Shown in pieces: positions 734 through 18,039 of a stretch of DNA of 64,000 nt. Both the position numbers and the translations under genes were made by a program. The notes beneath the pieces were generated by a model. It saw only the letters and a list, made by a program, of their open reading frames with translations. It made no database searches and was not told where the DNA came from. This DNA is from Hydrogenophaga sp. (GTDB taxonomy: Bacteria > Pseudomonadota > Gammaproteobacteria > Burkholderiales > Burkholderiaceae_C): the NCBI RefSeq assembly GCF_030373225.1, contig NZ_JAUCZG010000020.1, positions 1-64,000 on the forward strand, in the 5' to 3' direction. Position 1 is the first letter of the stretch; each line of letters begins with the position of its first letter.

Positions 734-928
734 ATGACGGTCAAGGATGTCGCAGCCTTTCTGAACGTCGACGACAAGGCTATCTACCGGTTCACCCAGA
801 AAGGTGAACTGGCGGGCTTCAAGGTAGCCGGTGCCTGGCGCTTCCAGCGCGCGGACATTCAGGGATGGATAGATGCGCATAAGAGCACCGGACCAGATGG
901 TGATGAAGTCAAGGGTGGCGGTGCGTAG
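734..928 (+). CDS. Helix-turn-helix (excisionase/MerR-type) DNA-binding protein
   Basis: The 64-aa protein is almost entirely one excisionase-family winged HTH: MTVKDVAAFLNVDDKAIYRF is the helix-turn-helix, and AGFKVAGAWRFQRADIQGWI is the wing and recognition segment typical of 'helix-turn-helix domain-containing' DNA-binding proteins. An in-frame TAA at 713-715 makes ATG 734 the first Met available. It is the first gene of the plus-strand operon, 66 bases before the DUF499 ATPase gene, so it most likely regulates the defence genes; a role as recombination directionality factor is a less likely alternative because the integrase lies 15 kb away. Domain assignment is from residue pattern; the regulatory role is inferred. 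Confidence 0.75.
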   Translation: MTVKDVAAFLNVDDKAIYRFTQKGELAGFKVAGAWRFQRADIQGWIDAHKSTGPDGDEVKGGGA

Positions 929-994
929 TGCGTTCTCGGTGTCGCCGCTGGCGGCACGAGGTACAAGATCGAAATCGAATTGAGGGAGCTATAG

Positions 995-3900
995 ATGCTA
1001 TTGACGGTTAGACAAGCTTGCACGCTGAACGAAGGCGCGCTCAACATCCGCATTAGCGACGGCATAGAGCGGGTCGACCAGGAGACCCAGAGCATCGACG
1101 ATGGGCGCCTGTTTCTCAAGCACTCTTACCTGACCAAAGGCATGGTCGAACTGGTCCAGGAGGGCTTTAAGCGGCTGTCAGGTGGCCTGGGCGGTAAGCC
1201 CGTTTTTCGCCTGAAGCAGGCCATGGGTGGCGGTAAGACCCACCTGATCAAAACCATGGCATTCCTAGCTCGCCATGAACTCCTTCGCTCTGAATTCTTT
1301 AGCGAAGCGGCCAGCCGGTACCAGTTCGGCGCCGCGAGGGTCACCTTCTTCAATGGCCGCGAGCAGCCAGACGACTACTTCTGGGGGCGCATCGCAGCGC
1401 AGTTGGGCCACGACGGATTTTTCGAGCCCGGTGTCAAGGCACCAGGTGAAAACCATTGGACGGCCCTGTTCAACAAGATCGATGCACCTGCGTTGATCTT
1501 GTTGGACGAAATGCCCACCTACTTCGCGTACTACAAGACGCAGCCGATTGGTGGGGGCACTGTGGCCGACGTGGCCGGGCGTGCGTTCGCGAACATGCTA
1601 ACGGCAGCCATGGCGCGCAATAATATATGCGTCGTCGTGTCCGACCTCGAAGCCTCTCACGCGGAAGGCACGCAGATCATCAATGCCGCTTTGGAGAATG
1701 CGCGCAAGGAACTGAGCCGTGTCGAGTTCAACATCACACCTGTTGACCTTGCGGGTGATGAGACCTACGCCATCTTGAAGAAGCGGCTCTTCGCTACGCT
1801 GCCAGACGCGAACAAGATCGGTCATCTGGCCCAGATGTATGCCAAGTCCATCGAGCAGGCTCAGAAGTCGCGCACGATTGACCAGCAGAAGACGCCCGAG
1901 CAGTTGGCGATGGAGGTGGAGCAGACCTATCCATTCCACCCACAGATGAAGAATCTGTTCGCCCTGTTTAAGGAGAACAAGGAATACCAGCAGACCCGCG
2001 GCTTGATGGAGCTTGCCTCGCGCTTGCTCAACTCGGTTTGGTCACGCAAGTCCGATGATGTCCTTTTGATAGGACCGCAACACTTCGACCTTAGCATTGA
2101 CGAGGTTCGCGAAAAAGTCATTTCGATATCCCGGCTCGAGGACGCGGTCGCCCGGGACATCTACTCCAAGGAGGGTGGCGCCCACGCCCAGGTCATCGAC
2201 GCCAATGCCGGCAGCGATTGCGCCACGCAGGCTGCGAACCTGCTTCTTATCTCCAGCATGTCCACCGCCGTCAATCCGGTGAAGGGGCTGACCCGCTCCG
2301 AAACGCTGGAGTGCCTGGCTTCCCCTATTGCCGACCTCAGCTTCTTCGAAGCAGCGCTTGATTCATTGCAGAAGTCGGCCTGGTACATGCACCGAACGAC
2401 TGAGGGTCGCATCTACTTCGACAAGATGGAGAACCTGACCAAGATGTTGGTCGGAATGGCCGAACGGGCGCCGGAGCCCAAGGTCAAGGAGTTGGTGTCG
2501 ACACGGCTTAAACAGATGTTCGAGCCCAAGCGCAAGTCGGCCTACAGCAAGGTCCTTGCGCTGCCAATGATCGACGAAATACAGGCGGATGTGCAGGCTG
2601 GACGCGTGCTGGCGATCGTGCCGCCGGACTCTGCACTGCCGCCCGAAGAGGTGGTCAAGCTTTTCGACGGCCTGACGCGCAAGAACAACCTGCTCATCCT
2701 GTGTGGCGAACGCTCGTTCGAGATGGACAAGCTTTGGGACGCGGCCCGGATGGTCTATTCCGCCAACCAGGCCGAGGCCCAGCGGCGCATCGAACGTGGC
2801 GGCCCGCAGTGGGAAGAGTTCGAAGACCTCCGCAAGCAGTTTGAACTGACGTTCACAGGCGTCGTGAAGACGCTGTTCGACAAGCTCTTGTTCCCCTTCC
2901 AGACGCCGAGTACCGCCCCGAAGCTGCAACCCCGCAACCTGGAGCAAAGTGGCGACACCAATGACGGGGAGGCGCGCATCGAGGCGACGCTGATCAAGGA
3001 CCCGATCAAGCTGTACCTGGACTGGCAGGACACGACCAAGTTTGCAGGCGTCAGGTCGCGCGTTGAGCGCCTATTCGGCCCGCAAGACGATGTCGCCTGG
3101 GCCGACATCAAGGACAAGGCGCAGACCGACTGTTCGATGTACTTCCTGCCGCAGGGCGACTTGGAAAAGATCAAGATCCGCGCCATCAACGAGGGTCTTT
3201 GGGAGGACCTGGGCAACGGCTACGTCACCAAGAAGCCCAAGCCCAAGCAAGCCGGAGTGCAGGTCACGCCGGTCGGCAAGATGCAGGACGATGGGTCCAC
3301 TGTGCTGCAGATCGGCGTCATCAACGCCAGCCCAGAGACCACGAGCGTCTATTACGCCGAGGACGGCGAGGTGTCTGAGGCTTGCCCAAAGCTGAGCGAC
3401 GATAAGCTCAGCACCAAGGCGCTCCGAGTCGCGTTTCTGGCCGTCGACCATTCCAGTCGCACCGAGAAGGGCGCACCGCACGTCTGGCAGAACAAACTTC
3501 TCGTTCAGTGGGAGATTAAACCGGGGAGCAATGGACAACGCTCAGTATCCCTCACGGTGCTACCTCACGCGGATGTGGTGCGTTACACCTTGAACGGTGC
3601 AGAGCCGCGAAACGGAACAAGCTATGCAGGACCCTTCTCCGTCGGAGGCGATGCCGCACTGCTGCTTGTTTACAGCGAGGCCAGCGGGCTCGAAGGCAGG
3701 GCGGAGTTCAGGATTCCAGCCTTGGGTGGCGGCGGTGGTGGCGGCGAGACGAAGCCGATCGAACCACCCCTCAACAAGCCAGTGTCCTATCCGACGCAGC
3801 GCAACGCGCAAGTCACATCGCGTGAGCAGGTATTCGCCGCGCTGGCCAAGGCGGTTGAAAGGAACATCGAGTTCACCGACGTCGTGCTGCGCATCCAGGA

Positions 3901-4111
3901 AGGTACCGCGTTCGGCCAATTCGGACTGCAGGGCAAGAGCAGCAAGGCCGAGCGAATCCAGCAGGCGCTGGAGACCCTCTCGGCAGGCTTTTCGCCGTCC
4001 ACTCCCGTAACCATGCAATTCAGAGCCCGGTTCCCAACTGGGCAAGATTTAATCGACTTTACCAAGTCGCTGGACCTGGCCTATGCCGGTGAGTGGGCGG
4101 AGGCGCCATGA
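995..4111 (+). CDS. DUF499 AAA-type ATPase, anti-phage system component (BrxC/PglY-like COG1483)
   Basis: A 1038-aa ATPase. Walker A is AMGGGKTH at residues 76-83 and Walker B is LILLDE at 167-172. The GGGKTH form with a surrounding H/L pattern is that of DUF499 (COG1483), the family that includes the ATPases of BREX type 3-like systems. A glycine run of seven near residue 910 links a C-terminal domain of about 110 residues. The start ATG is preceded by a GGGAG ribosome site. The stop overlaps the next gene (ATGA). In related systems this ATPase is thought to couple phage sensing to the methyltransferase and helicase; that role is inferred here. GC content and codon use match the rest of the operon except the methyltransferase. 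Confidence 0.85.
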   Translation: MLLTVRQACTLNEGALNIRISDGIERVDQETQSIDDGRLFLKHSYLTKGMVELVQEGFKRLSGGLGGKPVFRLKQAMGGGKTHLIKTMAFLARHELLRSEFFSEAASRYQFGAARVTFFNGREQPDDYFWGRIAAQLGHDGFFEPGVKAPGENHWTALFNKIDAPALILLDEMPTYFAYYKTQPIGGGTVADVAGRAFANMLTAAMARNNICVVVSDLEASHAEGTQIINAALENARKELSRVEFNITPVDLAGDETYAILKKRLFATLPDANKIGHLAQMYAKSIEQAQKSRTIDQQKTPEQLAMEVEQTYPFHPQMKNLFALFKENKEYQQTRGLMELASRLLNSVWSRKSDDVLLIGPQHFDLSIDEVREKVISISRLEDAVARDIYSKEGGAHAQVIDANAGSDCATQAANLLLISSMSTAVNPVKGLTRSETLECLASPIADLSFFEAALDSLQKSAWYMHRTTEGRIYFDKMENLTKMLVGMAERAPEPKVKELVSTRLKQMFEPKRKSAYSKVLALPMIDEIQADVQAGRVLAIVPPDSALPPEEVVKLFDGLTRKNNLLILCGERSFEMDKLWDAARMVYSANQAEAQRRIERGGPQWEEFEDLRKQFELTFTGVVKTLFDKLLFPFQTPSTAPKLQPRNLEQSGDTNDGEARIEATLIKDPIKLYLDWQDTTKFAGVRSRVERLFGPQDDVAWADIKDKAQTDCSMYFLPQGDLEKIKIRAINEGLWEDLGNGYVTKKPKPKQAGVQVTPVGKMQDDGSTVLQIGVINASPETTSVYYAEDGEVSEACPKLSDDKLSTKALRVAFLAVDHSSRTEKGAPHVWQNKLLVQWEIKPGSNGQRSVSLTVLPHADVVRYTLNGAEPRNGTSYAGPFSVGGDAALLLVYSEASGLEGRAEFRIPALGGGGGGGETKPIEPPLNKPVSYPTQRNAQVTSREQVFAALAKAVERNIEFTDVVLRIQEGTAFGQFGLQGKSSKAERIQQALETLSAGFSPSTPVTMQFRARFPTGQDLIDFTKSLDLAYAGEWAEAP

Positions 4112-4713
4112 CGCGTCACTCTCCGTCTGGAAACCCACCCTCGACTGCTAGTCCCGGGCCGGCGGGTTTTGTTGGCTTTGGTGCCAGTGCCGAGTACGGC
4201 GCCCATGTGTTCACTGTCAATATCCCGGCCGGCCGGTCGGGCGATGTGGTCTTGACCGAGGCATATGGTTACCTCGCCGGGCAGGAGGGCACACCCGAAT
4301 TCGAAATCCGGGCCATCCTGCCCCGCGCCAAGTGGGGAAAGCTTGCGGATGCCGCCCGCAAGGATTTCAACGCCCGACTTCGTAGCAGCAAGGTCCCACC
4401 CAGTACATGGAAGCCGCAAGCCAACTTCCTGGATCGCATGCTGGGCAAAGAGCTTTGCGTGCTCATATGGGCTGCGGAGCATGCCAGCGAGGAGCAGCTT
4501 GATGCCATTTGCATCAAGTGGACCGCGCTGCGCCCAGAGGAGCGATGGTGGCTTTACGCCATGACTGCGGCTCAAGGTGGTCTTGCGGAAGATGGGAAAC
4601 GTGGATGGCGCAAAGCCCTGTTTTATGCGCTTTCTGATATTGAGGCCGGCGAGCCACGCAAAGGCCGGCAAGCCCTCTTGGATGACGACAAGACCTTCAG
4701 CCTGTTCGGATGA
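4108..4713 (+). CDS. DUF3780 domain protein of the defence operon
   Basis: A 201-aa protein matching the DUF3780 family in length and in remembered pattern: FGFGASAEYG-like opening, the LPRAKWGKLADAAR segment, LLGKEL-like RMLGKELCVLIWA, and LRPEERWWLYAMT near residue 145. It starts inside the stop of the DUF499 gene (ATGA), so it is translationally coupled to it. Neither a catalytic motif nor a membrane segment is visible. DUF3780 proteins recur between DUF499 and DUF1156 genes in predicted anti-phage loci; a biochemical function is not known to me. It may be a structural or adaptor subunit of the ATPase/methyltransferase complex (inference). Confidence 0.75.
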   Translation: MTRHSPSGNPPSTASPGPAGFVGFGASAEYGAHVFTVNIPAGRSGDVVLTEAYGYLAGQEGTPEFEIRAILPRAKWGKLADAARKDFNARLRSSKVPPSTWKPQANFLDRMLGKELCVLIWAAEHASEEQLDAICIKWTALRPEERWWLYAMTAAQGGLAEDGKRGWRKALFYALSDIEAGEPRKGRQALLDDDKTFSLFG

Positions 4714-4729
4714 CAACGGAACCTAGTTT

Positions 4730-7588
4730 ATGGAAAAAAGAATAATGACAGCGAGATCGGAAATAGTTGAGTTCAGTCTAAAGAATGCACCCTCTCTTAT
4801 CGAAAAGGTCCTTCCCGTCCAAAGACTATCAATTGATGTCTACAAGGAGCGAATGGCCGGCTCGGGCCAAACTCTTACGTCGTTAGGCTCATATTGGAAG
4901 GGTAGAAAGCCGCTTGTACTAAACCGAGCATGCATTCTGGGTGCACTCCTACCCGCATCTGAAAACACAAAGAAGGATCTTGAAGTATTTGAGCTTCTAA
5001 TGGGAATGGACGATGAGTCCATGCGTAAGCGGCTTCAACTTGATGATGCAGAGCAGCTGCCATCACTTTCCTATAAAGCCCTCGCCAGTAAAGGGAAGCG
5101 AGCCGAAGAAATTTTCGAAACTATTCATACCCATATTTGGGAAAGGGTAAATTCTCATCTTGGTACATGTGCAAACAACTATGTGCAGTTGGTTGAACAG
5201 CTCGGAATCATGCGCTTTGGACATCGGCCGAGGGTTGCCGATACATTCTCGGGTTCGGGTCAGATACCATTTGAGGCTGCCCGATTAGGTTGCGATGTTT
5301 ACGCCTCGGACCTAAATCCAATTGCCTGCCTGTTGACTTGGAGCGCCTTTAAGATCGCAGGTGCTAGTGACAGTCGACGTGCTGAAATCGCAAATGAACA
5401 GGCAAGAGTAATTGCTGAGGCAAAGTCGAAGATTGATGCGTTAGGTGTAGAGACGGATGGTAAGGGATGGAGGGGAAAAGTCTACCTCTATTGCCTTGAA
5501 GTTCTTTGTCCAACTTCTGGGTGGAGGGTTCCTGTTCTTCAATCTCTAGTCGTCAGTGTCGGGTACAGGGTTGTGGCCAAGCTTGTGCCAGATCCAACAA
5601 ATAAGCGCTACAAAATTAGACTCGGCCACAATGCCTCGGACCTCGAACTCAAGACCGCGGAGACGGGCACGATAACGCGCAACAGTCGTTACGGCGAGGC
5701 TTACCTGACCCATACCGTCAACGGCGTTCTTCACAGGAACTCTATTTCAGGTATCCGTGGAGACAATGCCAGCAACGAGGATGGCGTCGAACGTCCGAGG
5801 AACCGCCTGAGGCAGTGGGAAAACTCCGATTTACTTTTTCGAGAAGAGGATATCTTCGGCGAGAGGTTGTATGCAATCCAATGGATAGAGGAATCTGCAG
5901 CGAGCAGACCGAAAAGTGAATTCAGAGATGTTACAGAAGAGGATTTAGCGCGGGAAGAACTCGTCACTGAGCATGTAAGAGTCAATTTAGGTGAGTGGCA
6001 GAGACTTGGATATGTGCCAGACCTTAAAATCGAGCCAGGCGCTCCCCCGCGGTATCAAGGTCGGAGTCTCGTCGTCGAGCGTGGATGGACACGCTGGCAA
6101 CATGCGTTCAATCCAAGACAAATACTTTTGAATGCCACGCTACTCTCCTGTTGTCAAACGGCGGAGAGTCTGGGGATGACGATACGCGGCCTTGACGTTA
6201 ATTCTCGGCTCAGTGTCTGGCACAGATCTCATGGTGGTGGCGGTAGTGTTCAGAAGGTCTTCATGAATCAAGCCTTGAACCCACTTTACGATTACGGCAG
6301 TCGTGGACTCGCATATCTGACTCCTTTCATTTCATCGCTCGGATCACATGCTCCAATCGCCGGAGATTACGACATAGTGAATGGTCCGGCAATTGAATTT
6401 ACGAGCAGTGCAGACCTTTTCATAACTGACCCGCCCTACGGGGATGCCGTCAAATATGAAGAACTCCTCGATTTCTTCATAGCATGGGTACGAAAGAGGA
6501 ATATCCCTGAATTTAAAGATTGGATTTGGGACTCCCGCCGCGCCATAGCGGTCAAGGGAGAGGATCATGATTTCAAATTGGGGATGGTCGCCGCTTACAA
6601 GCGGATGGCCGAGCGTATGCCAGAGAATGGCCTACAAATTGTGATGTTTACCCATCAATCCGGCTCAATTTGGACGGACATGGCAAATATTGTCTGGGCT
6701 AGCGGGCTGCGAGTTACGGCAGCGTGGTATGTAGTAACCGAAACAGATAGCGCTCTGCGGGACGGGCAGTACGTCAAGGGAACAATTTTGCTTGTCTTGC
6801 GTAAGCGCCTAGAAACCATTGATACGGCGCGCGACGAGTTGGCCTATGAGTTGGCCGAAGAGGTTAAGAATCAGGTTGACTTGCTAACGGGACTGAACAA
6901 GGACGTCAAGGATTTGTACCGCGATGAAAACCTATTCGAGGACGCTGATCTGCAGATGGCCGGTTACGCGGCAGCACTGAGGGTGCTTACCCGGTACTGC
7001 ACCATTGACGGTGTGTCGATGCCACATGAAGCCATGAGGCCGCGTGTGAAGGGCCAGACGACCATGATTGACGAGCTGATAGCGTTTGCTGTCAATATCG
7101 CTAACGAATACTTGGTGCCTGACGGAGTGGACCGTGCGGTTTGGGAAAAGAGTGCTGGCATCGAACGCTTTTATTTGAAGATGCTTGATATGGAGTCCAA
7201 AGACATTCACGTCCTGTCGAATTATCAGAACTTCGCCAAGGCGTTCAAGGTGCAGGACTACGGCGTGGTGATGGATGAGGTCAAGGCAAACCATGCCAAT
7301 CTGAAAAGCGCCTCGCAGCTCGGCAAACGGGGCATGACGGCGGCCGAAGAGTTCGGCCCAACCTTGCTGCGAAGCGTGCTGTACGCCGTGCACCTGCTGC
7401 AGGAAGACAAGATAAAACCCGAGGACGTCTTGCACCAGCTCCGTGACTTGGTGCCTGACTACTTCCGCGAGCGGGAGCGTATTACTGCTCTTGCGGACTA
7501 CGTGAGCAAGAAGACCGCGAAGACACGGCCGGACGAAAGCTCGAACGCCATGGTGTTGCGCGATCTGGTCCGGCGCGAGCGCGTTTGA
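4730..7588 (+). CDS. DUF1156 N6-adenine DNA methyltransferase (COG1743, PglXI-like)
   Basis: A 952-aa protein. The N-terminus carries the DUF1156 signature (LIEKVLPVQRLS ... SYWKGRKPLVLNRA, residues about 20-70). The SAM-binding motif I is DTFSGSGQIPFEAARLG at about 170-186, and the catalytic motif IV DPPYGDAVKYEE lies near 565, so a large, probably target-recognition insert separates them. The reaction would be N6-methylation of adenine in host DNA. The start may be ATG 4730 or 4745; GGAAC precedes the first and a purine-rich GGAAAAAAG precedes the second. The first two thirds of the gene are visibly poorer in G+C than its C-terminal third and its neighbours, which suggests that the recognition part was exchanged. 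Confidence 0.88.
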   Translation: MEKRIMTARSEIVEFSLKNAPSLIEKVLPVQRLSIDVYKERMAGSGQTLTSLGSYWKGRKPLVLNRACILGALLPASENTKKDLEVFELLMGMDDESMRKRLQLDDAEQLPSLSYKALASKGKRAEEIFETIHTHIWERVNSHLGTCANNYVQLVEQLGIMRFGHRPRVADTFSGSGQIPFEAARLGCDVYASDLNPIACLLTWSAFKIAGASDSRRAEIANEQARVIAEAKSKIDALGVETDGKGWRGKVYLYCLEVLCPTSGWRVPVLQSLVVSVGYRVVAKLVPDPTNKRYKIRLGHNASDLELKTAETGTITRNSRYGEAYLTHTVNGVLHRNSISGIRGDNASNEDGVERPRNRLRQWENSDLLFREEDIFGERLYAIQWIEESAASRPKSEFRDVTEEDLAREELVTEHVRVNLGEWQRLGYVPDLKIEPGAPPRYQGRSLVVERGWTRWQHAFNPRQILLNATLLSCCQTAESLGMTIRGLDVNSRLSVWHRSHGGGGSVQKVFMNQALNPLYDYGSRGLAYLTPFISSLGSHAPIAGDYDIVNGPAIEFTSSADLFITDPPYGDAVKYEELLDFFIAWVRKRNIPEFKDWIWDSRRAIAVKGEDHDFKLGMVAAYKRMAERMPENGLQIVMFTHQSGSIWTDMANIVWASGLRVTAAWYVVTETDSALRDGQYVKGTILLVLRKRLETIDTARDELAYELAEEVKNQVDLLTGLNKDVKDLYRDENLFEDADLQMAGYAAALRVLTRYCTIDGVSMPHEAMRPRVKGQTTMIDELIAFAVNIANEYLVPDGVDRAVWEKSAGIERFYLKMLDMESKDIHVLSNYQNFAKAFKVQDYGVVMDEVKANHANLKSASQLGKRGMTAAEEFGPTLLRSVLYAVHLLQEDKIKPEDVLHQLRDLVPDYFRERERITALADYVSKKTAKTRPDESSNAMVLRDLVRRERV

Positions 7589-7612
7589 ATCTTCACGACG
7601 TTGTTCGCTCCA

Positions 7613-7969
7613 ATGGCTCAGCTCGGTGACCTCACAGATCAGCAGCAGCTCTACTCGGCAATCCGCGAGGAAGTCGAGAAAGCATGTGGTATTGAGCGGC
7701 GTAAGCGCGGCTTCAATCTATCGGGTCGAGGGCACGAGCCTCGGATTACTCTGAATCGCAGGATGGCCGCGATTCTTCGGACTTGCGACATTCCTCGGGT
7801 CACTATCACTGGCTACGGGGCCAACAACTACTATCCCGCCCGAGTGTTTGAACGAGCAAAAGACGCATTGAACAGGCGACTTGGGTGGTGTCCATTCGCT
7901 CGGTCGAGTGACGGAGCTCTCTGCTTCGTCGAGCGTGCAGGCTCGGTGGCGAAGGAGCCCAAGCCGTGA
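7613..7969 (+). CDS. Unrecognised 118-aa protein within the defence operon
   Basis: I do not recognise this family. The protein is basic and soluble, with a predicted helical opening (DLTDQQQLYSAIREEVEKACG) containing a RRKRG cluster after it, and a conserved-looking ITGYGANNYYPARVFERAK segment around residues 65-83. ATG 7613 is taken; a TTG at 7601 in frame is an alternative. The end overlaps the helicase start (GTGA at 7966-7969), so the two are translationally coupled. Position between methyltransferase and helicase argues for a role in the same system, for example as a small DNA-binding or adaptor subunit; that is inference from context only. Confidence 0.65.
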   Translation: MAQLGDLTDQQQLYSAIREEVEKACGIERRKRGFNLSGRGHEPRITLNRRMAAILRTCDIPRVTITGYGANNYYPARVFERAKDALNRRLGWCPFARSSDGALCFVERAGSVAKEPKP

Positions 7970-10698
7970 TCCAACGTTTTTCTTCCCTGCGTCAGCGCCT
8001 GGACCATGTGTTCCTTGCCGATCGACTCAAAGGTGCACGGTCCTACAAGCGGATCGCGGGGTACTTTCGCTCCTCCATCCTGGAACTGGTCGGCGAACAG
8101 ATCGAGGAGATCGAGGACGTCCGTATCGTTTGCAACAGCGAGCTGGATCCGCATGACGTCATGGTGTCCAAGGCAGCGCGCGAAGTCGCGCTGAAGGAAC
8201 GTTGGAATCAGGAGCCGATTGAGACCGAGGCTTTTTTCCATCGAGAACGCTACCGGCGCCTGTACAACTTGCTTAGCAGCGGCCGCGTGCAGATCAAGGT
8301 GGTGCCGAAGAACCGGGTCTTTCTGCATGGCAAGGCTGGCGTGATTACGCTGGCAGATGGGCGGCGCACCAGCTTCCTGGGCAGCATCAACGAAAGCCGC
8401 GCCGCGTTCGCGGAGAACTATGAGATTTTGTGGGAGGACCCCTCAGAGGAGGGTTGCCGTTGGGTCGACGAGGAATTCGATGCGCTGTGGGCCGAGGGGC
8501 ATGACCTGCCCGATGCCATCCTCACTGAGGTCAAACGCATCGCCGAGCGAGTGGAGGTCACCTTCAAAGACCTGCCGGCCAAAGACCTGCCCGCGGCGAC
8601 GATGGTGGAGTCCCCCATCTACCGTGGCGGCGAGCAACTGCAGCCCTGGCAGAGGTCGTTCGTCGCCACCTTTCTGCAGCACCGAGAAATTTACGGCAAG
8701 GCCAGGCTCCTGATAGCGGATGAGGTAGGGCTTGGTAAGACGCTATCCATGGCTACGGCGGCTTTAGTCAGTTCACTGCTGGGCGATGGCCCGGTGCTGA
8801 TTCTGTGCCCGGCAACTCTGACCTTGCAGTGGCAGGCCGAGATGAAGGACCGTCTGGGAATTCCAAGCGGGGTCTGGGTGAGCAACCAGAAGTGCTGGCT
8901 GGACGCCGAGGGGCGCACGATCATGACGCGTGGTGCGGAGGACATCGCGCGCTGCCCTTTTCAGGTCGCGATCGTGTCCACCGGATTGATTGTTCACCAA
9001 TCCACCGAAGCCAACGTGTTGAAGCGTGTACGGGTGGGCACGCTGATCCTGGATGAGAGCCATAAGGCTCGGCGCCGCGGGCAACTTGGCGTTGACGACC
9101 CGGAGCCCAATAACCTGTTGGCCTTCATGATGGACATGGCTCACAACGCCCGTCACGTGCTTCTCGGCACAGCTACACCGATCCAGACGGCGGTACGCGA
9201 GCTGTGGGATCTGCTGATGATCCTGAACCAGAACGCCGACTTCGTAATGGGCCGGGACCAAGCGTCGATCTGGCGGTTCTGGCAGAGGACGCACCCGATC
9301 ATCACCGGCCGCGAATTCGTGCCCGATGAGGCAACAGCCTGGGACCTGCTGCGTTCGCCGCTACCCGCGAAGACCACACCGATGATGGATGTGATCTGCA
9401 GACCTCTGGTCCTGGCGATCCGAAACGACCTAAACCTGCCCGACGGCCAGTTTCACGTCTCTGACGCTTCGACAAGCCTGAGCCCTTTCACGCGTTCGGA
9501 CCTGCAGGCGTTGGTCAAGACAAACTTCTTCCAGCGAAACAATCCATTCGTGCGCCATGTCGTTCTTAGGCGACGGAAGACACTCGAGGACGCTGGGTTG
9601 CTGGAGAAGATCGCTGTCGATGTCCATCCTGACCCGGAGGCACCGCCTGGAACCTATCCCGGCGTAACTTTCCTGGGCCGCGGCCTCATGACCAACCATC
9701 CTTTTGAGTTGGCCTATGAAGCTGCGGAGGCGTTCATTGCCATCCTCAGCCAGCGCACGAAGGGCGCGAAGCTGCTGCGGTCGGTGTTCCTACAGCGAAT
9801 CTGTTCGTCGTTTCAGTCGGGGCGCCTGACGGTCGAACGCATGCTGGCGCGGCGGGTCGACACCAGCGGCGACAACCCGCAACTGGAGATGGTCGAGCTC
9901 GGCGCCCTGCAAACGCTGACCGATGAAGAGGTCGGATATCTCGAGGCGATTCGCGACGAGTTGACACGTGCGGAGGCGATCGACCCGAAGCTCAACGCCG
10001 TCCGTTGGTTCCTGAGCCAGCATCGAAGCGGTGGACAGACTTGGAGCGAGCTCGGCTGCATCATTTTTTCGCAGTATTACGACACCGCGCACTGGGTAGC
10101 CACTGAACTCGCCAAGGACTTCCCCGACAAGGTAGTCGCCGTGTATGCCGGCGCCGGCAAGAGCGGCCTCTTCCGTGACGGTGAGTTCATCGGCGTCGAC
10201 CGCGACCAGATCAAGAAGTTGGTCAAGACCCGGGAAGTCCAACTGGTGGTAGCCACCGACGCAGCTTGCGAGGGCCTCAATTTGCAGACTCTGGGTACGC
10301 TCATCAACATCGATCTGCCGTGGAACCCATCGCGGCTTGAACAACGCCTGGGCCGCATCAAGCGATTTGGCCAAGCCCGCGATACCGTGGACATGCTCAA
10401 CCTGACCTATCACGCCACACGAGATGAGGACGTCTACAACACGATTTCGTCACGGATGAAGGACCGCTTTGACATCTTCGGTGGGCTGCCGGATTGCATC
10501 GACGACGACTGGATCGAAGACATCCAGGAGTTCGAGGACCTGGCGCAGACTCATCTACATCTACGAGGTCAGGTTTCTAATATTTTCGAGGAGACCTGGG
10601 GATCGACCGTGAGCAGCGAACAAAACCGATGGGACGAGTGCACCCGGGTGCTGTCGCGGCGCGACATCCTGCAGGTGATGGGAGCTCCGTGGCGATGA
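7966..10698 (+). CDS. PLD-domain SNF2-family helicase (defence operon effector candidate)
   Basis: A 910-aa protein starting at GTG in a GTGA overlap. The N-terminal third has a phospholipase-D-like fold signature: HGK at residues 121-123 followed by LGSINES near 138-144. The SNF2 helicase core follows: Walker A ADEVGLGKT near 252, motif II LDESHK near 361, motif III-like LLGTATP, and C-terminal motifs V/VI (VVATDAACEGLNLQ near 760 and RLGRIKRFGQ). COG0553 helicases with such N-termini accompany DUF1156 methyltransferases in BREX type 3 and related loci. Probable roles are translocation on non-methylated phage DNA and, through the PLD part, cleavage; only one HKD-like motif is clear, so nuclease activity would need dimerisation (inference). 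Confidence 0.87.
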   Translation: MIQRFSSLRQRLDHVFLADRLKGARSYKRIAGYFRSSILELVGEQIEEIEDVRIVCNSELDPHDVMVSKAAREVALKERWNQEPIETEAFFHRERYRRLYNLLSSGRVQIKVVPKNRVFLHGKAGVITLADGRRTSFLGSINESRAAFAENYEILWEDPSEEGCRWVDEEFDALWAEGHDLPDAILTEVKRIAERVEVTFKDLPAKDLPAATMVESPIYRGGEQLQPWQRSFVATFLQHREIYGKARLLIADEVGLGKTLSMATAALVSSLLGDGPVLILCPATLTLQWQAEMKDRLGIPSGVWVSNQKCWLDAEGRTIMTRGAEDIARCPFQVAIVSTGLIVHQSTEANVLKRVRVGTLILDESHKARRRGQLGVDDPEPNNLLAFMMDMAHNARHVLLGTATPIQTAVRELWDLLMILNQNADFVMGRDQASIWRFWQRTHPIITGREFVPDEATAWDLLRSPLPAKTTPMMDVICRPLVLAIRNDLNLPDGQFHVSDASTSLSPFTRSDLQALVKTNFFQRNNPFVRHVVLRRRKTLEDAGLLEKIAVDVHPDPEAPPGTYPGVTFLGRGLMTNHPFELAYEAAEAFIAILSQRTKGAKLLRSVFLQRICSSFQSGRLTVERMLARRVDTSGDNPQLEMVELGALQTLTDEEVGYLEAIRDELTRAEAIDPKLNAVRWFLSQHRSGGQTWSELGCIIFSQYYDTAHWVATELAKDFPDKVVAVYAGAGKSGLFRDGEFIGVDRDQIKKLVKTREVQLVVATDAACEGLNLQTLGTLINIDLPWNPSRLEQRLGRIKRFGQARDTVDMLNLTYHATRDEDVYNTISSRMKDRFDIFGGLPDCIDDDWIEDIQEFEDLAQTHLHLRGQVSNIFEETWGSTVSSEQNRWDECTRVLSRRDILQVMGAPWR

Positions 10699-10875: not shown

Positions 10876-11475
10876 CTAAGCTCCAATTCGAAGAGTTGGC
10901 GGCCATCGCAAGAGTCGGCAAATTTCATCGTCGATCGCCATTTCAACCTCCTGTAGTTTTTCAAACTGTTGGCGGTAGGTGTCGAGGTGCATGCCTTTTC
11001 TTCGGCTGCCATGAGGACCTAAATGTCGGAGGATCTTCTGTCGCTTGATCGCTAGGCGCCCCAGCCGAGACTCGCTTTGCGACTCGTAGGACAGCCGGTG
11101 GCAGTGCCTGCAGCGAAAAGTTCTGTTGCCGAAGAACATCACGGAGCAGCGCTGCCGACATCCAGGGCACAGCATCATCACCCGAGTTCCCCCGAATCCA
11201 CATGCGGCATGGCTCAGATCGATGGTCTCGTGCACGAGTAGGCCACCAACCGCGTAGGAAATCTCCATGTTGTTTTGTAATGTCCTGACCGAGATGGTCG
11301 ATGTCGTCGCAAGCGTCTCAGGGTTCTTCCACCACCACATGCCTTGCCACGGAGTCCGAAATAGACCGGCTTTCTGCATCTGGCGAATATCCAAGCGCCT
11401 CGCATCTTCCACATGGCAGGCGTTTCCTGGTCGGCCAGCTCCCGCACGCAACCCTCCCCGGTTTTCGCTTCTCAT
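10876..11475 (-). CDS. Island protein with Cys4 zinc ribbon
   Basis: A 199-aa protein whose start (ATG 11475) overlaps the stop of the upstream gene. It opens with GGLRAGAGRPG and DARRLDIRQMQKAGL, a layout common to hypothetical proteins of proteobacterial integrative elements. A zinc ribbon is formed by CPGCRQRC and CRHCHRLSYESQ in the middle, followed by a basic helical tail (RLAIKRQKILRHLG). No catalytic motif is seen. A DNA- or RNA-binding accessory function for the element is possible but not shown. It is the last gene of the minus-strand module and converges on the helicase gene. Confidence 0.65.
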   Translation of the reverse strand: MRSENRGGLRAGAGRPGNACHVEDARRLDIRQMQKAGLFRTPWQGMWWWKNPETLATTSTISVRTLQNNMEISYAVGGLLVHETIDLSHAACGFGGTRVMMLCPGCRQRCSVMFFGNRTFRCRHCHRLSYESQSESRLGRLAIKRQKILRHLGPHGSRRKGMHLDTYRQQFEKLQEVEMAIDDEICRLLRWPPTLRIGA

Positions 11476-11945
11476 TTCGGAATCAAGTTGAACCGGTAGC
11501 CGGCGAGACCGTAGGCGGCCTGGTTGAATAGATTGAGGTCGTATGGGCTGGCGCGCGTGAGAGCTGGTGCGCATTCAAGGTGCGTGACTTCAGTAGTGCA
11601 CTTGGCGGACGAGTAGTGGTGGTCATGGAGTCCCGGTGGGAGTCCACATGTGGAGGAGGGTGTATTTACCCAAGCGAAGTTTGCTGGACCTCTGCCGTGG
11701 CGAGGCATAGCCAGTGCTTTTGCGCGAACGACGCGCAGCGAGACCGCCGGCAATATAGCGCGCTGGGTGATCCAGCGAAACGCCGTGGAGTGGCGGCAGC
11801 CGATGAGCGCCGCGATGGCGCGCGAGGTGGTACCGGCAGCTCTTAGCTCGCGGGCGCGAGCGACCTCTACGTCGGTGAACCGATGGAAGTGATTGGCCTC
11901 GCCCACCGGCTGCCCAAAACGGTTCGTGTGCCGCGGTATCAGCAT
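11472..11945 (-). CDS. Hypothetical island protein with HTH-like N-terminus
   Basis: A 157-aa protein. ATG 11945 is chosen because GGAAGGG lies nine bases upstream; a GTG at 11963 is an alternative. Residues about 22-60 (VARARELRAAGTTSRAIAAL then WITQRAI) look like a resolvase/AsnC-type helix-turn-helix similar to 'HTH' segments used in crossing-over and phage regulators. The C-terminal half is not recognised. It is coupled by ATGA to the zinc-ribbon gene downstream. Likely a DNA-binding accessory of the integrated element; moderate certainty that it is a real gene because of the coupling and the clear HTH pattern. Confidence 0.5.
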   Translation of the reverse strand: MLIPRHTNRFGQPVGEANHFHRFTDVEVARARELRAAGTTSRAIAALIGCRHSTAFRWITQRAILPAVSLRVVRAKALAMPRHGRGPANFAWVNTPSSTCGLPPGLHDHHYSSAKCTTEVTHLECAPALTRASPYDLNLFNQAAYGLAGYRFNLIPK

Positions 11946-12084
11946 GTTGCTGGACCCTTCCACGCAGGAGCGCTTAGCCGGCGGGGTGAGCTGCAGATTT
12001 CCTGCTCGTTCAAGGCGCTATGGGCTGTCTTGCGTGAAACACCGACACCGTGTGCCCCCGCACCGAAAATCCCCCAGCACAACC

Positions 12085-12218
12085 TGCACGCGGTGCACGC
12101 GGTCTGATCTTCTGCACCGTGTGCAACCACGTTCGCAGAGTGCGTTTGCCTGCACGCACTGTGTGTGTAGGGTACAAGGGACCGAGTGCGTGCAGCTGTG
12201 CACCCGGCTTGGCTGCAC
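12085..12218. repeat. Cluster of TGCAC/GTGCA motifs, possible iterons of an island origin
   Basis: TGCAC or its complement occurs at 12085, 12094, 12113, 12121, 12151, 12190, 12198 (palindromic GTGCAC) and 12214, that is about nine times in 134 bases, usually as CTGCACG. The cluster lies immediately downstream of the primase-helicase gene in a stretch (11946-12225) without a convincing gene. Phage P4-type satellites replicate from iteron-bearing origins bound by their own primase-helicase, so this is a candidate replication origin; the assignment is inference. Confidence 0.45.
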
Positions 12219-12225
12219 GTGGTTT

Positions 12226-14628
12226 TCACAGCTCACCCTCCGGCGTGAAAACACCAGCGGCGGTCTCATGCCCCTTTTCGGTCAAAGCCAGGCACTCACC
12301 CGCGTTGCGGTTGCTCATCAGATAAGTGTCCACTTTTACGAACCCTTCACCGAGCCACCGGTTGACCTCCTTCATGACGTCGGCCGACTTCAAACCCGCC
12401 GGCATACCCTCCATCGATTTCAGCGTGTTGAAGACGCTGTTGCTAGAGTTTTGTTTTGGACTGACCCGGCGCCCTTGTTTGATGGCCTGGTCCAAAAGGT
12501 TTAGCAGCATGTCGCGGTGATCCTCGGCTCGGGCACGCCCTTGGCGAACCGTGACGACATCGAACAGCTTGAGCCCGTCGTTCCACTTGATAACCGCCTC
12601 GGCGCCGGCCTTGGCGTAGTTCACCTTCGGCAGCGTGAGCACGATCTCGTCGCTGTCCTTGACCCTAGCCATGAACCAGCGAGAGCGGGCACTGTTGTGC
12701 CACCCGGTGCTGCCTGAATACCCCTTGGCCTCGCCAACCTCGGCCATGCTGCTGGCGGCGTCGACGTGGGACAGCAGCAGTACCGCCGACGCCAACCGCT
12801 TCAGGTGCGACATGAACTGCCGTACCTTCGCCCGGTCGTTTTCGTTCGCGTCGATCGCGTCGGATGCGTTGTCGAAGATCAACACCTTGGCGTCGATGCG
12901 TTTGACCTCCTTCGCCAACCACTTGAACCTCTCCGTCGTCCGGCCGTTGACCTTTTCCTCCCCAGCAAACAGCACGTTGTCGCTCTCGGTTGCGTCCAAC
13001 ACGTGGAGCCACCCTTCCAGATCAGAACGGGCAATCTTCAGCTTGCGCATGTACCGCGCGAAGCGCAGGTGCATCACGTCAAGGTTGTCCTCGGCGCTGT
13101 AGAGCACAACCCGGGTCCGCGGGATCTTCTGGTCAGGGTCGAACGGGTGCCGCCCCGTAGCCAGGCACAGTGCGATGTACACGGACATGTAGCTCTTGCC
13201 GGTGCCGCCATGCGCCGCGAACATCGTCACCACCTTGTCGGGCATCCAGCCCGGTATGACGAACGGAATCTCGGGCGGATCCTCCGGCATCCTTGACCAA
13301 TCCAGCGCGACCGGGTGCCTATCCGTTTTGACCTCAACGCCCAAGTCTTCGGCCAGTTTCTCGGGCGTCCCACCGGTCTTGCCAGAAAGGCGCTTTAGCA
13401 CCGAATCGACCATCGCCTGGGCATGGTGCAGTGCTGGCAATTCCGCCTTGACCATCTCTATCAGATCAGTGGCGGCGACCCCTTCGCTCTCGGCCATCTC
13501 GATCATGCCCAGGATGTAGTCGCGCTTGTCTCTGTCCACCGCCTCCAAGTCTTCGAACTCCGCTGCCCCGGCTGGGCTGCTACGCGATGGCACAGCTGCC
13601 GAGAGGCCCAGCTCAGGGTGCTCACGCTCGAACCACTCAAGCACCTGGGGGAACTTCAGCTCGCCGCCATGCCGGTGGTGGCAGCGGTAACCGTAACTGC
13701 CATCGCTGTTGAGCCGCACTGCGGCGCCGTTGTCGGCGCTGTCGGTGTGCTCGTACACCTTGCAGCAGGTAACGTCGTGCCATCCGTCAGACAGTGCGTG
13801 TTTGTATGCTCCGATGGCAGCGAAGGCGTCGAGCACCGGATCGCCACCAACAACCGCGTCGTGACGCGCAGGTTTGGCCCCATCGCAGTCGGTATGCTTG
13901 CTGATGTCGTCCGCACTGATGCCGAACGCCTCAGCGATCTGGGCTATGGTGTACTTGCGCTCAGGCACATATTCGAGCATCTGGCAGAGGTAACCATCAG
14001 CCCCAAACCGCTCGAGATACGCCGACTTGCGGTTGCTGCCCACTGGCAGGCGCACGTAGCGAGTCACGCCCTTCATGCCTGGATCTTTTCCCTCGACGGC
14101 CAGACCCTTGGCCACCATGGCGTTCACCAGGCCCTCGACAAGCACCTGGTCGGCCTCGCCACCGCCGGAGATGATGTACCCAACCTGGCAGTTCCCTGGT
14201 GAAGTCTCAAGCCGCCAGGATGGCGGCAGCGTCACCACGTCTCGCGGCACCTTGGTGCCGACGTCGTCGACTACGATGCAGCAGGTAACCCGGTGCAGCG
14301 CCTTGCGCCGCCTGGCCTTCTTGATGCCGTCCTCGACGGAAGGCTCGAACAGGCTGATGGTGAAGTAGGTGTTGCTGCGCGCTACCAGCGCGCGGGCCTT
14401 GTCGCTGTACCAGCCGCCGGCCCAGCACCGCGCCGATTGCTTGCGACTATGTGGGTCGAGCGTATCTGGTGACTCAGTGAACGCCGTGACGTGGGCGAGC
14501 ATGTACTCGTCACCAAAGACATCGAGCAGGAACTGTTCGTTCGAAATCTGGATGCCGCTGCCGGGCGCGGCGGTGGATCCAGCTTTAGCTAATGGCGCAT
14601 ACCGCACCGTCTCTTGAAGTATCGTCAT
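12226..14628 (-). CDS. Primase-helicase replication protein of the island
   Basis: An 800-aa protein. The N-terminal part contains TLPPSWRLETSPGNCQVGYI, the pattern of RepB-type primases (PF16793-like), and a short Cys/His-bearing CRYHRHG-like segment (YRCHHRHGG) in the middle. The C-terminal half is a RecA-like hexameric helicase: Walker A AAHGGTGKSYMS near residue 476 and Walker B KVLIFDNASDAI near 583, with a LLLSHVDAASS sensor. This layout is that of plasmid/phage satellite replication proteins (RepA/alpha type). Its start overlaps the stop of a 32-codon ORF (ATGA). The gene implies that the element can replicate after excision; the iteron-like cluster lies just downstream. Confidence 0.78.
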   Translation of the reverse strand: MTILQETVRYAPLAKAGSTAAPGSGIQISNEQFLLDVFGDEYMLAHVTAFTESPDTLDPHSRKQSARCWAGGWYSDKARALVARSNTYFTISLFEPSVEDGIKKARRRKALHRVTCCIVVDDVGTKVPRDVVTLPPSWRLETSPGNCQVGYIISGGGEADQVLVEGLVNAMVAKGLAVEGKDPGMKGVTRYVRLPVGSNRKSAYLERFGADGYLCQMLEYVPERKYTIAQIAEAFGISADDISKHTDCDGAKPARHDAVVGGDPVLDAFAAIGAYKHALSDGWHDVTCCKVYEHTDSADNGAAVRLNSDGSYGYRCHHRHGGELKFPQVLEWFEREHPELGLSAAVPSRSSPAGAAEFEDLEAVDRDKRDYILGMIEMAESEGVAATDLIEMVKAELPALHHAQAMVDSVLKRLSGKTGGTPEKLAEDLGVEVKTDRHPVALDWSRMPEDPPEIPFVIPGWMPDKVVTMFAAHGGTGKSYMSVYIALCLATGRHPFDPDQKIPRTRVVLYSAEDNLDVMHLRFARYMRKLKIARSDLEGWLHVLDATESDNVLFAGEEKVNGRTTERFKWLAKEVKRIDAKVLIFDNASDAIDANENDRAKVRQFMSHLKRLASAVLLLSHVDAASSMAEVGEAKGYSGSTGWHNSARSRWFMARVKDSDEIVLTLPKVNYAKAGAEAVIKWNDGLKLFDVVTVRQGRARAEDHRDMLLNLLDQAIKQGRRVSPKQNSSNSVFNTLKSMEGMPAGLKSADVMKEVNRWLGEGFVKVDTYLMSNRNAGECLALTEKGHETAAGVFTPEGEL

Positions 14629-14723
14629 GGTTCTTTGATCTGATGTTTGAGGGGCCTCGGCTGTGGCGGCTGGGGCCTTTTCCTTCTTTGCTTTGCCATG
14701 AGGCGGATGAATTCGTTCTTCAT
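14625..14723 (-). CDS. Micro-ORF, 32 aa, overlapping at both ends
   Basis: A 33-codon frame begins with ATG at 14723-14721, overlapping the TGA of the upstream HTH gene, and ends with TGA at 14627-14625, overlapping the ATG of the primase-helicase. The product would be very basic and proline-rich (Lys/Arg-rich MAKQRRKRP segment). The double ATGA overlap is the best evidence that it is translated; it may serve mainly to couple primase-helicase translation to the genes upstream. No family is recognised. Confidence 0.5.
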   Translation of the reverse strand: MKNEFIRLMAKQRRKRPQPPQPRPLKHQIKEP

Positions 14724-15013: not shown

Positions 15014-15129
15014 CGCCGGCCGCCTGTGACCTCTGCGGCCAGGTGCTCTAGGTCGACCAGGGCGATATGTGCGCGCGCAGTGATCAGGCACTTCGCATCG
15101 CTCGGCGTCAACGCTGTGGTGCCGGTCAT
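15010..15129 (-). CDS. Micro-ORF, 39 aa
   Basis: A 40-codon frame starts with ATG at 15129, overlapping the stop of the gene upstream (ATGA), and ends at 15010 overlapping the GTG of the next gene. The product (MTGTTALTPSDAKCLITARA at the start) is a short helical peptide without a recognised family. Chained overlaps on both sides support translation. Confidence 0.45.
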   Translation of the reverse strand: MTGTTALTPSDAKCLITARAHIALVDLEHLAAEVTGGRR

Positions 15130-16082: not shown

Positions 16083-16511
16083 TCACGGATTCTTTTTCCG
16101 GCGTTCTCGGTAGTAGGCTTGGCGCACGTCCTCGATTTCCGGGAACGCCGCACGGCGCTCCAGAATGTTGCAGGCCTGGGTGATGCTGCTGGCCTTACCG
16201 CTCGCTATGAGACCCTCAACAGCTTCCACCAGCCCGTCTTTTCCTGATGCCGGCCGGCCGGGAGCCCCACCTTCCTGAAACGCTGGAACAAAATCCATGG
16301 CTAGCTGCCAAGCGAGCAGCTGCCAGTCAGTACCGCCTGGTTCCCCGTCCTCAGCGGGCCTTTGTGCCTCTGGATACGCTGCGATGAGCACATCCAGGAG
16401 GTTCAGGGCGGGTGCGTAGCCTTCGGTCTGCAGGTAGCTGCTGCGGAGCATGGCCTTGGCCGCCGTTGGGTCTGTGGGCGCCTCGGTGGCGTTGTTGACC
16501 CGGGTCTTCAT
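16083..16511 (-). CDS. Hypothetical island protein, 142 aa
   Basis: A 142-aa acidic protein translated from an ATG that overlaps the integrase stop (ATGA). It has an N-terminal helical segment (AKAMLRSSYLQTEGYAPALN) and a C-terminal segment DGLVEAVEGLIASGKASSIT leading to a basic YYRERRKKNP tail. I do not recognise a family. Coupling to the integrase suggests an accessory role in recombination or control of the element, but nothing in the sequence shows it. Confidence 0.55.
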   Translation of the reverse strand: MKTRVNNATEAPTDPTAAKAMLRSSYLQTEGYAPALNLLDVLIAAYPEAQRPAEDGEPGGTDWQLLAWQLAMDFVPAFQEGGAPGRPASGKDGLVEAVEGLIASGKASSITQACNILERRAAFPEIEDVRQAYYRERRKKNP

Positions 16512-17770
16512 GCTGCGTCCAGCAAGGCCACGGCCGCGCGCTTCTGGTGAGGTGCCAGATGCGCATAGCGCTCGGTGAGAGTGATGCTCGAATGGCCGAG
16601 GAGATCTCTCACCTGATACAGGTCCACGCCGGCCTGCACCAGGCGCGAGGCAAAGTCGTGGCGCTGATCGTGAAAGGTGAGGTCGTTCAGCTGGGCCCGC
16701 TCGATCAGCACCGCCCAAGACTTCTTCAAGGTGACGAAGGGCTTGTCGGTATCGGCGTTCACGAATACGAACGGCGCAAGCTTTACTGGCTCGCCGGCGG
16801 CCTTGGCCTCGCGTGCGGCTGCGTCGCGCTCGGCCGCCAGCTCTTGCAGCACGCCAACGGCGGTTGCGTTGAGCGCGATGTGGCGGGTCTTGTTGCCCTT
16901 GCTCGATGCCGCCGTGACGATCAGCTCAGCACGTTGGATTGAGACGTTCTCCCACCGCAGCTTGAACATTTCACCGCGCCGCATACCGGTGTTCAGCGCC
17001 AGGATGCACAGTCGGCGCAGGTACGCCGGGGTGTCCGGATGGTTGAGGGCCTGCATGAACCGGGCGCGCTCGCCCAGCTTGTTGCCCTGGTCATCGAAGA
17101 TCTCTTCCTGCTCATCCCGTTGGCCAAGCCACCGCACGCGCTTGTCGTCGCCGATGAGGTCGCGCCCGAACGGTTTGAACGCAGGGTCGTCGAGGGGGTT
17201 CTTGTCGATGACACGAAACTCCACAGCCTTGTTCATAAGGGCGAGGAGGGCGGTGCGATCACGGTTCAGAGTCTGCGGGGCAATCTCCTCAGTCAGCCTA
17301 TCTGAACGGTGAGCCACGACCTTTTGGATATCCAGGGTGGCCATGTCGTCGTCGAGGATGGGTTTCCAAGCGGAAAGGATGCGGTTTTTGGTGTCCGAGC
17401 CGCTCTTGGCGCGGATCAGGCAATCAGTCCAGTACCTGCCTTCGACGAACTTGCGCACCGTGCGCGACTCGGCCTTCGCGTCTTCGACGCGCACCTCGCG
17501 CTTTTCGCCAGCTGGGTCTTTGCCGCGTACCTTGTCGACCGCCAGCCTGGCGCGCCCCGGGTCGAATTGCTCCAGGGTGCCGATGGTCCAGGTCTGTCTC
17601 TTACCAGCAGCGTCGCGATAGTCATAGGCCCAGGACATCTTGCCGGTGGCGCCCACTCGTAAGATCAGCCCACGGCACTCGGCATCACGATAGGTTTTGC
17701 GCTCGCCAGTGGGTTTGATGTGTTCGGCGATGTAGGTTTTCGTGAGCTTCGCGGTGATGACTGCGGCCAT
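16508..17770 (-). CDS. int: Tyrosine recombinase (P4-type site-specific integrase)
   Basis: A 420-aa phage integrase. The N-terminus has the DUF4102-like arm-binding form (YRDAECRGLILRVGATGKMS). The catalytic set is visible: Arg in TGMRRGEMFKLRW, Lys in SSKGNKTRHI, HDQR in LTFHDQRHDFASRL, His in LLGHSSITLTERYAHL and the nucleophile Tyr in the same RYAHL segment. It would catalyse insertion and excision at the 3' half of a tRNA gene. The gene lies 225 bases from the tRNA-Val remnant and is transcribed away from it, with phased repeats in between that could be its arm sites. The 142-aa gene downstream is coupled to it. Confidence 0.93.
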   Translation of the reverse strand: MAAVITAKLTKTYIAEHIKPTGERKTYRDAECRGLILRVGATGKMSWAYDYRDAAGKRQTWTIGTLEQFDPGRARLAVDKVRGKDPAGEKREVRVEDAKAESRTVRKFVEGRYWTDCLIRAKSGSDTKNRILSAWKPILDDDMATLDIQKVVAHRSDRLTEEIAPQTLNRDRTALLALMNKAVEFRVIDKNPLDDPAFKPFGRDLIGDDKRVRWLGQRDEQEEIFDDQGNKLGERARFMQALNHPDTPAYLRRLCILALNTGMRRGEMFKLRWENVSIQRAELIVTAASSKGNKTRHIALNATAVGVLQELAAERDAAAREAKAAGEPVKLAPFVFVNADTDKPFVTLKKSWAVLIERAQLNDLTFHDQRHDFASRLVQAGVDLYQVRDLLGHSSITLTERYAHLAPHQKRAAVALLDAA

Positions 17771-17994: not shown

Positions 17995-18039
17995 TTCACA
18001 CGGCAGGGGTCGCAGGTTCGAACCCTGCACCGCCCACCA
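17995..18039 (+). other. attR: 3' half of tRNA-Val(CAC) at the island's right end
   Basis: From the anticodon loop (TTCACAC) onward the sequence is a perfect tRNA 3' half: anticodon-stem GGCAG, a T arm GCAGG-TTCGAAC-CCTGC, acceptor strand ACCGCCC, discriminator A and CCA at 18037-18039. The matching 5' half is absent; the bases before the loop do not pair. The expected intact gene, tRNA-Val with anticodon CAC, would lie at the left end of the island outside this window. The crossover therefore lies at or near the anticodon loop, as is usual for tyrosine integrases. Confidence 0.85.

Follow-up and report, generated by a model that had tools for sequence, protein, structure and literature searches.

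The Type-2 BREX (bacteriophage exclusion)-related (BR) system was defined by Rakesh & Krishnan (2026; PMC12839542) in 1120 taxa and shows a standalone DUF3780 in 98% of them, an HKD-helicase with the HKD nuclease at its N-terminus in 83%, an N6-adenine methyltransferase (MTase) with an N-terminal DUF1156 and a target recognition domain (TRD) insert, placed between the FxGxG and DPPY motifs, and a DUF499 protein, which in about half of the cases contains Fn3-like domains before a C-terminal RRM. The same work describes PIN, HEPN and Schlafen partners of BR systems. The Hma system (PADLOC; PMC8565338) is the sister Type-1 BR, and restriction-modification (R-M) operons with HEPN-DUF499 proteins were already noted in 2013 (PMC3710099). 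The DUF499 label is not exclusive, as PMC8713573 applies it to SspD. The stretch analysed here, 64,000 nucleotides of Hydrogenophaga sp. (NZ_JAUCZG010000020.1, positions 1 to 64,000; hereafter the window), contains an operon of six plus-strand genes encoding a small helix-turn-helix (HTH) protein, a DUF499 ATPase, a DUF3780 protein, a DUF1156 MTase, a basic protein of 118 amino acids (aa) and a PLD-SNF2 helicase (Table 1). Judged by the families of its proteins, it has all four core genes of the published Type-2 BR definition, and it is itself a further member of an already described kind. We read it as a complete Type-2 BR anti-phage system on an integrative island, in which the MTase would direct the whole complex, and give this reading, mechanism included, a probability of about 0.82. 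The family of the 118-aa protein, the exchange of TRDs between systems and the copies of BR fragments in phages are additions that were not found in the literature searched, which did not extend to subscription papers and preprints.

The six genes reported in the earlier note, made from the sequence without database searches, are all present within the stretch it gave, each as an open reading frame (ORF) without internal stops, with short gaps or overlaps between them: the DUF3780 ATG (4108) and the DUF499 stop share 4 bases, as do the helicase GTG (7966) and the stop of the 118-aa gene. Its family assignments are borne out by Pfam, PADLOC and NCBIfam matches far beyond chance, the four core families being matched over the full length of their models. 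The PADLOC check that it proposed gives 1094 bits for DUF499 (aa 4-1028), 1263 bits for DUF1156_MTase and 1318 bits for PLD_Helicase. All four core proteins are named anti-phage in the NCBIfam models NF042961-NF042964, and three are over the cut-off: DUF3780 (NF042961, 214 bits, cut-off 200), the MTase (NF042963, 1167 bits, cut-off 1000) and the helicase (NF042964, 1166 bits, cut-off 1100). Pfam shows PF12635 in the DUF3780 protein (218 bits), DUF1156 in the MTase (67.6 bits), DUF499 and CHB_HEX_C_1 in the ATPase, with the Fn3-like stretch (CHB_HEX_C_1/Fn3_assoc) at about aa 846-888, and PLDc_2 (aa 19-175), SNF2-rel_dom (236-422) and Helicase_C (698-802) in the helicase. The ATPase contains a Walker A GGGKT, recognised directly in the sequence at aa 78-82, and a Walker B-like LILLDE at aa 167; the MTase contains DTFSGSG at aa 171 and DPPY at aa 567; and the helicase contains HGK at aa 121, GSIN at 139, DEVGLGKT at 252 and DESH at 363. 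The predicted structure of the DUF3780 protein (pLDDT 69) shows four strands followed by helices, and its comparison with the PDB gave no informative match. A homologue of the HTH protein, 74% identical, precedes DUF499 in the related locus L008 and a weak one is found in L075, with none at the other loci of that comparison; the HTH protein would be an optional regulator. Because the operon lies on a mobile island and the contig breaks at the start of the window, it could be thought of as decayed or inactive cargo, which is scarcely probable given that the ORFs are all intact, the catalytic motifs are present and starts overlap stops.

Forty-four related loci, reached through DUF3780 or the helicase, were compared by tblastn, and 36 of them contain all four core genes. 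Among the exceptions, L013, L031, L033, L076 and L078 run up to the edge of a contig or close to it (L031 also differs in gene order), L030 shows no helicase in the 2.1 kb retrieved beyond the MTase, and L081 and L086 have DUF3780 alone. The four genes are in the same order as in the window in all 11 annotated plasmid loci opened, which belong to Acinetobacter, Halomonas, Thiodictyon, Methylocystis, Pseudomonas, Sinorhizobium, Desulfosarcina, Thermomicrobium, Deinococcus, Lichenicola and Stutzerimonas; three of these loci (L020, L024 and L026) contain inserted genes, and in L023 and L024 a core gene is split into two ORFs. In the genome count with NF042964 only the 7 matches over the cut-off were accepted, since at E<=0.001 this model matches 349/349 genomes through generic helicases, and 14/14 controls.

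The way in which the segments of the four genes diverge bears on specificity. Segment identities were obtained for the 29 of 45 loci in which all segments are comparable, which gives 406 pairs. All segments outside the first 560 MTase residues track the ATPase core (r 0.95-0.97), whereas r falls to 0.75 for the MTase segment between FxGxG and DPPY and to 0.80 for MTase aa 1-199. Fourteen close pairs, formed by ten loci, are at least 90% identical in DUF499 aa 1-800. In 12 of them the TRD is less than 70% identical with the helicase at 86-99%, and the medians over the 14 pairs are 63.0% for the TRD, 93.7% for the DUF499 N-terminal part and 96.0 and 90.6% for the helicase. The window TRD is 49% identical to those of L008 and L009, with 94% identity in DUF499 aa 1-800 and 91-96% in the helicase. 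Four-fold-degenerate sites were used to tell recombination from relaxed constraint. The sites that agree in the TRD are 18/67 against 600/811 in the flanks for L022/L028 (p=2e-14) and 31/96 against 587/832 for L083/L085 (p=7e-13); for MTase aa 1-600 they are 42/152 against 403/798 between the window and L009 (p=2e-7) and 37/149 against 298/772 between the window and L008 (p=0.0015), and L008/L009 show the same deficit in the first 600 MTase residues (p=1.6e-6). Therefore, TRDs have been exchanged by recombination while the ATPase and helicase stay the same. The main text of PMC12839542 makes no mention of TRD swapping or recombination. The window clade suggested that the DUF499 C-terminus, DUF3780 and TRD might be exchanged jointly, as a single cassette. 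This idea finds no support in L022/L028 and L083/L085, where DUF3780 and the DUF499 C-terminus do not go with the TRD and that C-terminus is 93-94% identical with TRDs at 47-63%.

Target choice is placed in the MTase because the systems that exchange TRDs differ little in ATPase and helicase. A nuclease with its own fixed site would attack the host after a change of methylation motif, and therefore the simplest reading is that the MTase is also the target recogniser of restriction. Own specificity is known for some restriction enzymes of the PLD family, and a Type II-like arrangement, in which the PLD-helicase has a fixed recognition site of its own that the MTase does no more than protect, could be supposed on this general knowledge; however, a TRD replaced beside a 96-98% identical helicase, as in L022/L028, would leave host sites unprotected, and we consider such an arrangement very improbable. 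With the MTase probably setting the target for restriction as well as for methylation, we infer the following division of labour: the DUF1156 MTase would recognise a short motif through its TRD insert and methylate adenine in the DNA of the host; combined with the DUF499 ATPase and DUF3780, that recognition would direct the complex to unmethylated incoming DNA; the PLD-SNF2 helicase, the probable restriction effector by its domains, would translocate on this DNA and cut or block it; and the 118-aa protein would be an optional accessory, perhaps a nucleic-acid-binding modulator. Restriction directed by the MTase would resemble Type I R-M, and a parallel is offered by PglX in BREX, to which the title of PMC11341690 gives such a role. 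A Type IV-like, modification-dependent system, in which DUF3780 reads foreign modified bases, the helicase-nuclease attacks modified phage DNA and the MTase only marks or regulates self, would agree with the proposal that DUF3780, which some systems have fused to a RAMA or ASCH reader domain, is itself a reader (PMC12839542), and with the EVE proteins that recur beside related archaeal operons (PMC7641849). We hold it to be distinctly unlikely, as TRD exchange, seen in three clades, implies that the methylation motif is under selection, and DUF3780 diverges with the ATPase core (r=0.96, 406 pairs), unlike a fast-changing sensor.

Several observations weigh against a complete system directed by its MTase. 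The 14 close pairs come from three clades and are mutually non-independent, and two of them do not share the low TRD identity (L068/L083, 96%; L067/L084, 81%). The DUF499 C-terminus of the window (aa 801-1038) is only 74-75% identical to those of L008 and L009, and therefore may have a recognition role in that clade. The DUF499 protein, with 1173 bits, is slightly below the NF042962 cut-off of 1200. The PLD site has HxK and GSxN and does not match the textbook HxK-x4-D spacing, so that nuclease activity is uncertain. Nor is DUF3780 restricted to BR operons, being found without core genes in L081, L086 and Proteus phage Pm34. Neither a phage assay nor a methylome of any Type-2 BR system was found in the literature searched. 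To our knowledge, the only experimental support for the wider BR family is the Halomonas helicase-nuclease study (Liu et al. 2024) cited in PMC12839542. As for L068/L083, this pair speaks for TRD exchange as well and shows the reverse contrast, with four-fold sites agreeing more in the TRD (127/153) than in the flanks (377/792; p=1e-16). In MTase aa 561-640 of the same pair 32/33 four-fold sites are identical, against 377/792 in the flanking genes. These identities indicate that an MTase block was exchanged recently between a genome-contig system and a viral-contig system.

The earlier note assigned no family to the 118-aa protein, and searches of Pfam and NCBIfam (E up to 5), PHROGs (E up to 1) and PADLOC (E up to 0.01) gave no match either. 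A homologue, 45% identical, occupies the same slot between MTase and helicase in Variovorax (L009), and the two genes differ at 46/40/84 first, second and third codon positions over 118 codons; the third-position excess and the homologue in the same slot show that the small ORF is coding. In L008, a near relative, the MTase and helicase genes lie 8 bases apart and the 118-aa gene is missing; it is therefore optional. Five copies (window, L009, L073, L079 and L089) share 16 invariant columns, and the four measured are all basic (pI 9.8-11.3), from which charge one might guess that the protein binds nucleic acid. In L073, which belongs to genome G880 among 349 family genomes, the copy is 17 bases after an HmaB-type methylase gene (1527 bits) and 7 bases before a HEPN-DUF499 gene, a BR subtype different from that of the window; the ORF before the methylase is cut by the contig start, and L073 is likely a complete Type-1 BR operon. 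In the viral contig L079 the copy is upstream of DUF499 in a Type-2 BR operon, and in the viral contig L089 (1-354) it starts at the first base, beside two genes that by eye look like serine recombinases. All four copies with readable neighbours adjoin BR genes; only L073 of these was found without a BR anchor, as BR genes led to the window, L009 and L079 (in the case of L079, DUF3780), and the 118-aa protein led to L073 and L089. Whole-genome searches gave matches in 1/369, 1/299, 2/349, 1/130, 1/28 and 1/9 genomes; the sets overlap, and the genome of the window is itself among those counted in the first four. Plasmids and phages gave no new matches, nor did viral contigs with alignments A1 and A2; A4 on viral contigs gave L088 (the same as L079) and L089, and A5 the same two, L088 being listed by scans whose alignment already included L079; and the L089 protein as query found only itself. 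The L073 copy weakly matches ThiN (E=0.034, below the cut-off), and when the five-row profile of the family was aligned with one ThiN sequence by hhalign, 34/100 shuffles scored as high. The structure model of the protein is unreliable.

By these copies the 118-aa proteins are a rare, real family, so far linked to BR systems. A role as mere passenger, functionally unconnected with the defence operon, would account for its absence from most Type-2 BR loci, L008 included, at junctions whose genes vary, and for its fast change (45% identity with neighbours at about 90%); ascertainment also favours this reading, since L073 and L089 are the only copies discovered with the protein as query and one side of L089 is unreadable. 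We regard it as rather unlikely: the whole-genome matches are the window's genome, that of L009 and G880, each with the gene beside BR genes, the G880 copy sits between an HmaB methylase and HEPN-DUF499 in a different subtype, sixteen columns are invariant in five copies, and the gene overlaps that of the helicase by 4 bases.

Other genes are found at the same junctions (the window is not counted here). The DUF3780/MTase junction shows at least 700 extra bases in 12/41 loci, and the MTase/helicase junction at least 300 extra bases in 6/36. DarTG, an ADP-ribosyltransferase of single-stranded DNA with its macrodomain antitoxin, is in the DUF3780/MTase junction of five Type-2 BR operons (L067, L068, L083, L084 and L085); the assignment is based on Pfam for L067 and the L084 macrodomain and on 70-84% identity for the rest, DarT being 70-82% and DarG 81-84% identical to the L067 copies. 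The same junction contains PIN/VapC genes in four loci (L026, L029, L032 and L034), a Schlafen AlbA_2 gene in L030 and L069, and an ORF that by eye looks like a transposase in L080. The MTase/helicase junction contains, besides the 118-aa family in L009, a gene for a 311-aa DUF4357 protein in L010 (13633-14568; PADLOC candidate PDC-S14, 473 bits; PHROG 12629), VapC with small ORFs in L020, a Schlafen protein in L024, an AAA and an uncharacterised protein in L026, and a ParA-like ATPase with another ORF in L029. The main text of PMC12839542 makes no mention of DarT or ADP-ribosylation. The 118-aa family and the DarTG, PIN and Schlafen inserts point to accessory layers of BR systems.

Fragments of the system are also found in phages. 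Among 50,697 phage records only one, that of Proteus phage vB_PvuS_Pm34 (L096, KY420199.1; complete, 39.6 kb), contains DUF3780, as gp4, annotated as hypothetical and located near the lysis genes; it is 71% identical to the DUF3780 of L080. The adjacent gp5, of 175 aa, corresponds with 78% identity to the 175 C-terminal residues of the L080 DUF499, a non-catalytic part, and neither annotation nor tblastn revealed other BR core genes in the record. This pair of genes seems to be a segment captured from a BR operon. Two of the 12 viral contigs with DUF3780, L081 and L086, lack DUF499, MTase and helicase in the contig stretch examined; their DUF3780 proteins are 49% and 35% identical to that of the window, that of L081 adjoins ORFs which by eye resemble terminase, portal and protease genes, and both look like separate acquisitions. 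All three proteins are tail-less: from the RWW motif to the end they have 33 (L081), 40 (L086) and 33 (Pm34) residues, against 50-77 in 42/42 BR loci measured (L027 is unmeasurable), and 31/42 BR loci have LF near the end. These DUF3780 and DUF499 fragments are candidate anti-BR decoys, or chance captures. It is a tentative possibility, on the doubtful side, that they block assembly of the BR complex, with the host keeping the engine constant, swapping TRDs and adding accessories such as the 118-aa protein and DarTG. If they are decoys, they would reveal the parts that hold the complex together and the role of the DUF3780 tail.

Table 1. Coordinates of the operon, its island and the phage-borne fragments (window positions unless a locus is named).
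Feature	Position	Strand	Remarks
HTH_17 / excisionase-type DNA-binding protein, 64 aa	734..928	+	Pfam HTH_17, 46.8 bits
DUF499 AAA+ ATPase, 1038 aa	995..4111	+	PADLOC, NCBIfam, Pfam
DUF3780 protein, 201 aa	4108..4713	+	ATG start; alternative GTG at 4093 gives 206 aa
DUF1156 N6-adenine DNA MTase (predicted), 952 aa	4730..7588	+	PADLOC, NCBIfam, motifs
TRD segment of MTase, aa 200-560, between FxGxG and DPPY motifs	5327..6409	+	Divergence among close relatives
118-aa basic protein, pI 9.8	7613..7969	+	ATG start; TTG at 7601 gives 122 aa
PLD (HKD)-SNF2 helicase, 910 aa	7966..10698	+	GTG start
Tyrosine integrase of island	16508..17770	-	Pfam Phage_integrase, 103 bits
Probable right attachment site, 33-base tRNA-3' sequence	18007..18039	+	Duplicated 3' end of tRNA-Val
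Pm34 gp5 (DUF499 C-terminus) and gp4 (tail-less DUF3780)	L096 (KY420199.1) 11371-11898 and 11944-12459
Tail-less DUF3780 in virus contigs	L081:7992-8447; L086:5185-5688

The island with an integrase that the earlier note had recognised is confirmed by the integrase and the tRNA-3' repeat (Table 1). The source genome consists of 52 contigs, and the window begins at the start of contig C20, so that the left side of the island is lost to the contig break. With 2 mismatches allowed, the 33-base repeat recurs only once in the genome, as the 3' terminus of a tRNA-Val(cac) that is intact and lies on the minus strand of contig C2 (G000:C2:16493-16567). A type IV restriction gene (mREase_IV, 96 bits; L094, G000:C2:15478-16440) adjoins this tRNA and may mark the opposite end of the island. 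On the minus strand, the interval from the defence operon to the integrase contains genes for an 800-aa AAA_25 ATPase (12226-14628) and an HTH protein (14720-15145), which may form a replication or regulation module of the integrative element.

For a widespread kind of system (1120 taxa; PMC12839542) that stands without experiment in the literature searched, the TRD exchanges give a testable claim, that target choice of the whole system resides in the MTase, for which L022/L028 and the window with L009 are natural pairs. The earlier note knew of no characterised system with this gene set and would have taken a full description of the system under a different name as a refutation; the set is already named Type-2 BR (PMC12839542; NCBIfam NF042961-NF042964), and such a description thus exists at the bioinformatic level. 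Compared with MADS, the small HTH protein resembles MAD1 (58 bits in NCBIfam, below the curated cut-off of 80) and the MTase gives a marginal mad2 match (19.9 bits), which is all that the six proteins show of the MAD1-8 set. BREX type 3 has a homologous ATPase, an MTase with an internal TRD and a BrxHII-type helicase (PMC12839542), but DUF6079 where the window has DUF499; in the window the PLD is fused to the helicase and PglZ is absent. The kinship with BREX type 3, as a relative without PglZ, that the earlier note proposed stands, as PglZ (PF08665) has no match in the whole genome, BrxA, BrxB, BrxF and BrxL not having been searched genome-wide. Type-1 BR/Hma is alike in helicase, DUF1156 methylase and DUF499 ATPase, but it has neither DUF3780, which the window has, nor an N-terminal PLD, its DUF499 is often fused to HEPN, and its models score far lower on the window proteins than those given above (HmaC 166 vs 1094 bits, HmaB 78 vs 1263 bits). 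Type-2 BR is alike in the DUF499 with an Fn3-like domain, the standalone DUF3780, the DUF1156 N6-MTase with a TRD insert and the HKD-SNF2 helicase, to which the window adds the 118-aa protein between MTase and helicase, of which no mention was seen in the part of PMC12839542 consulted, and the upstream HTH protein.

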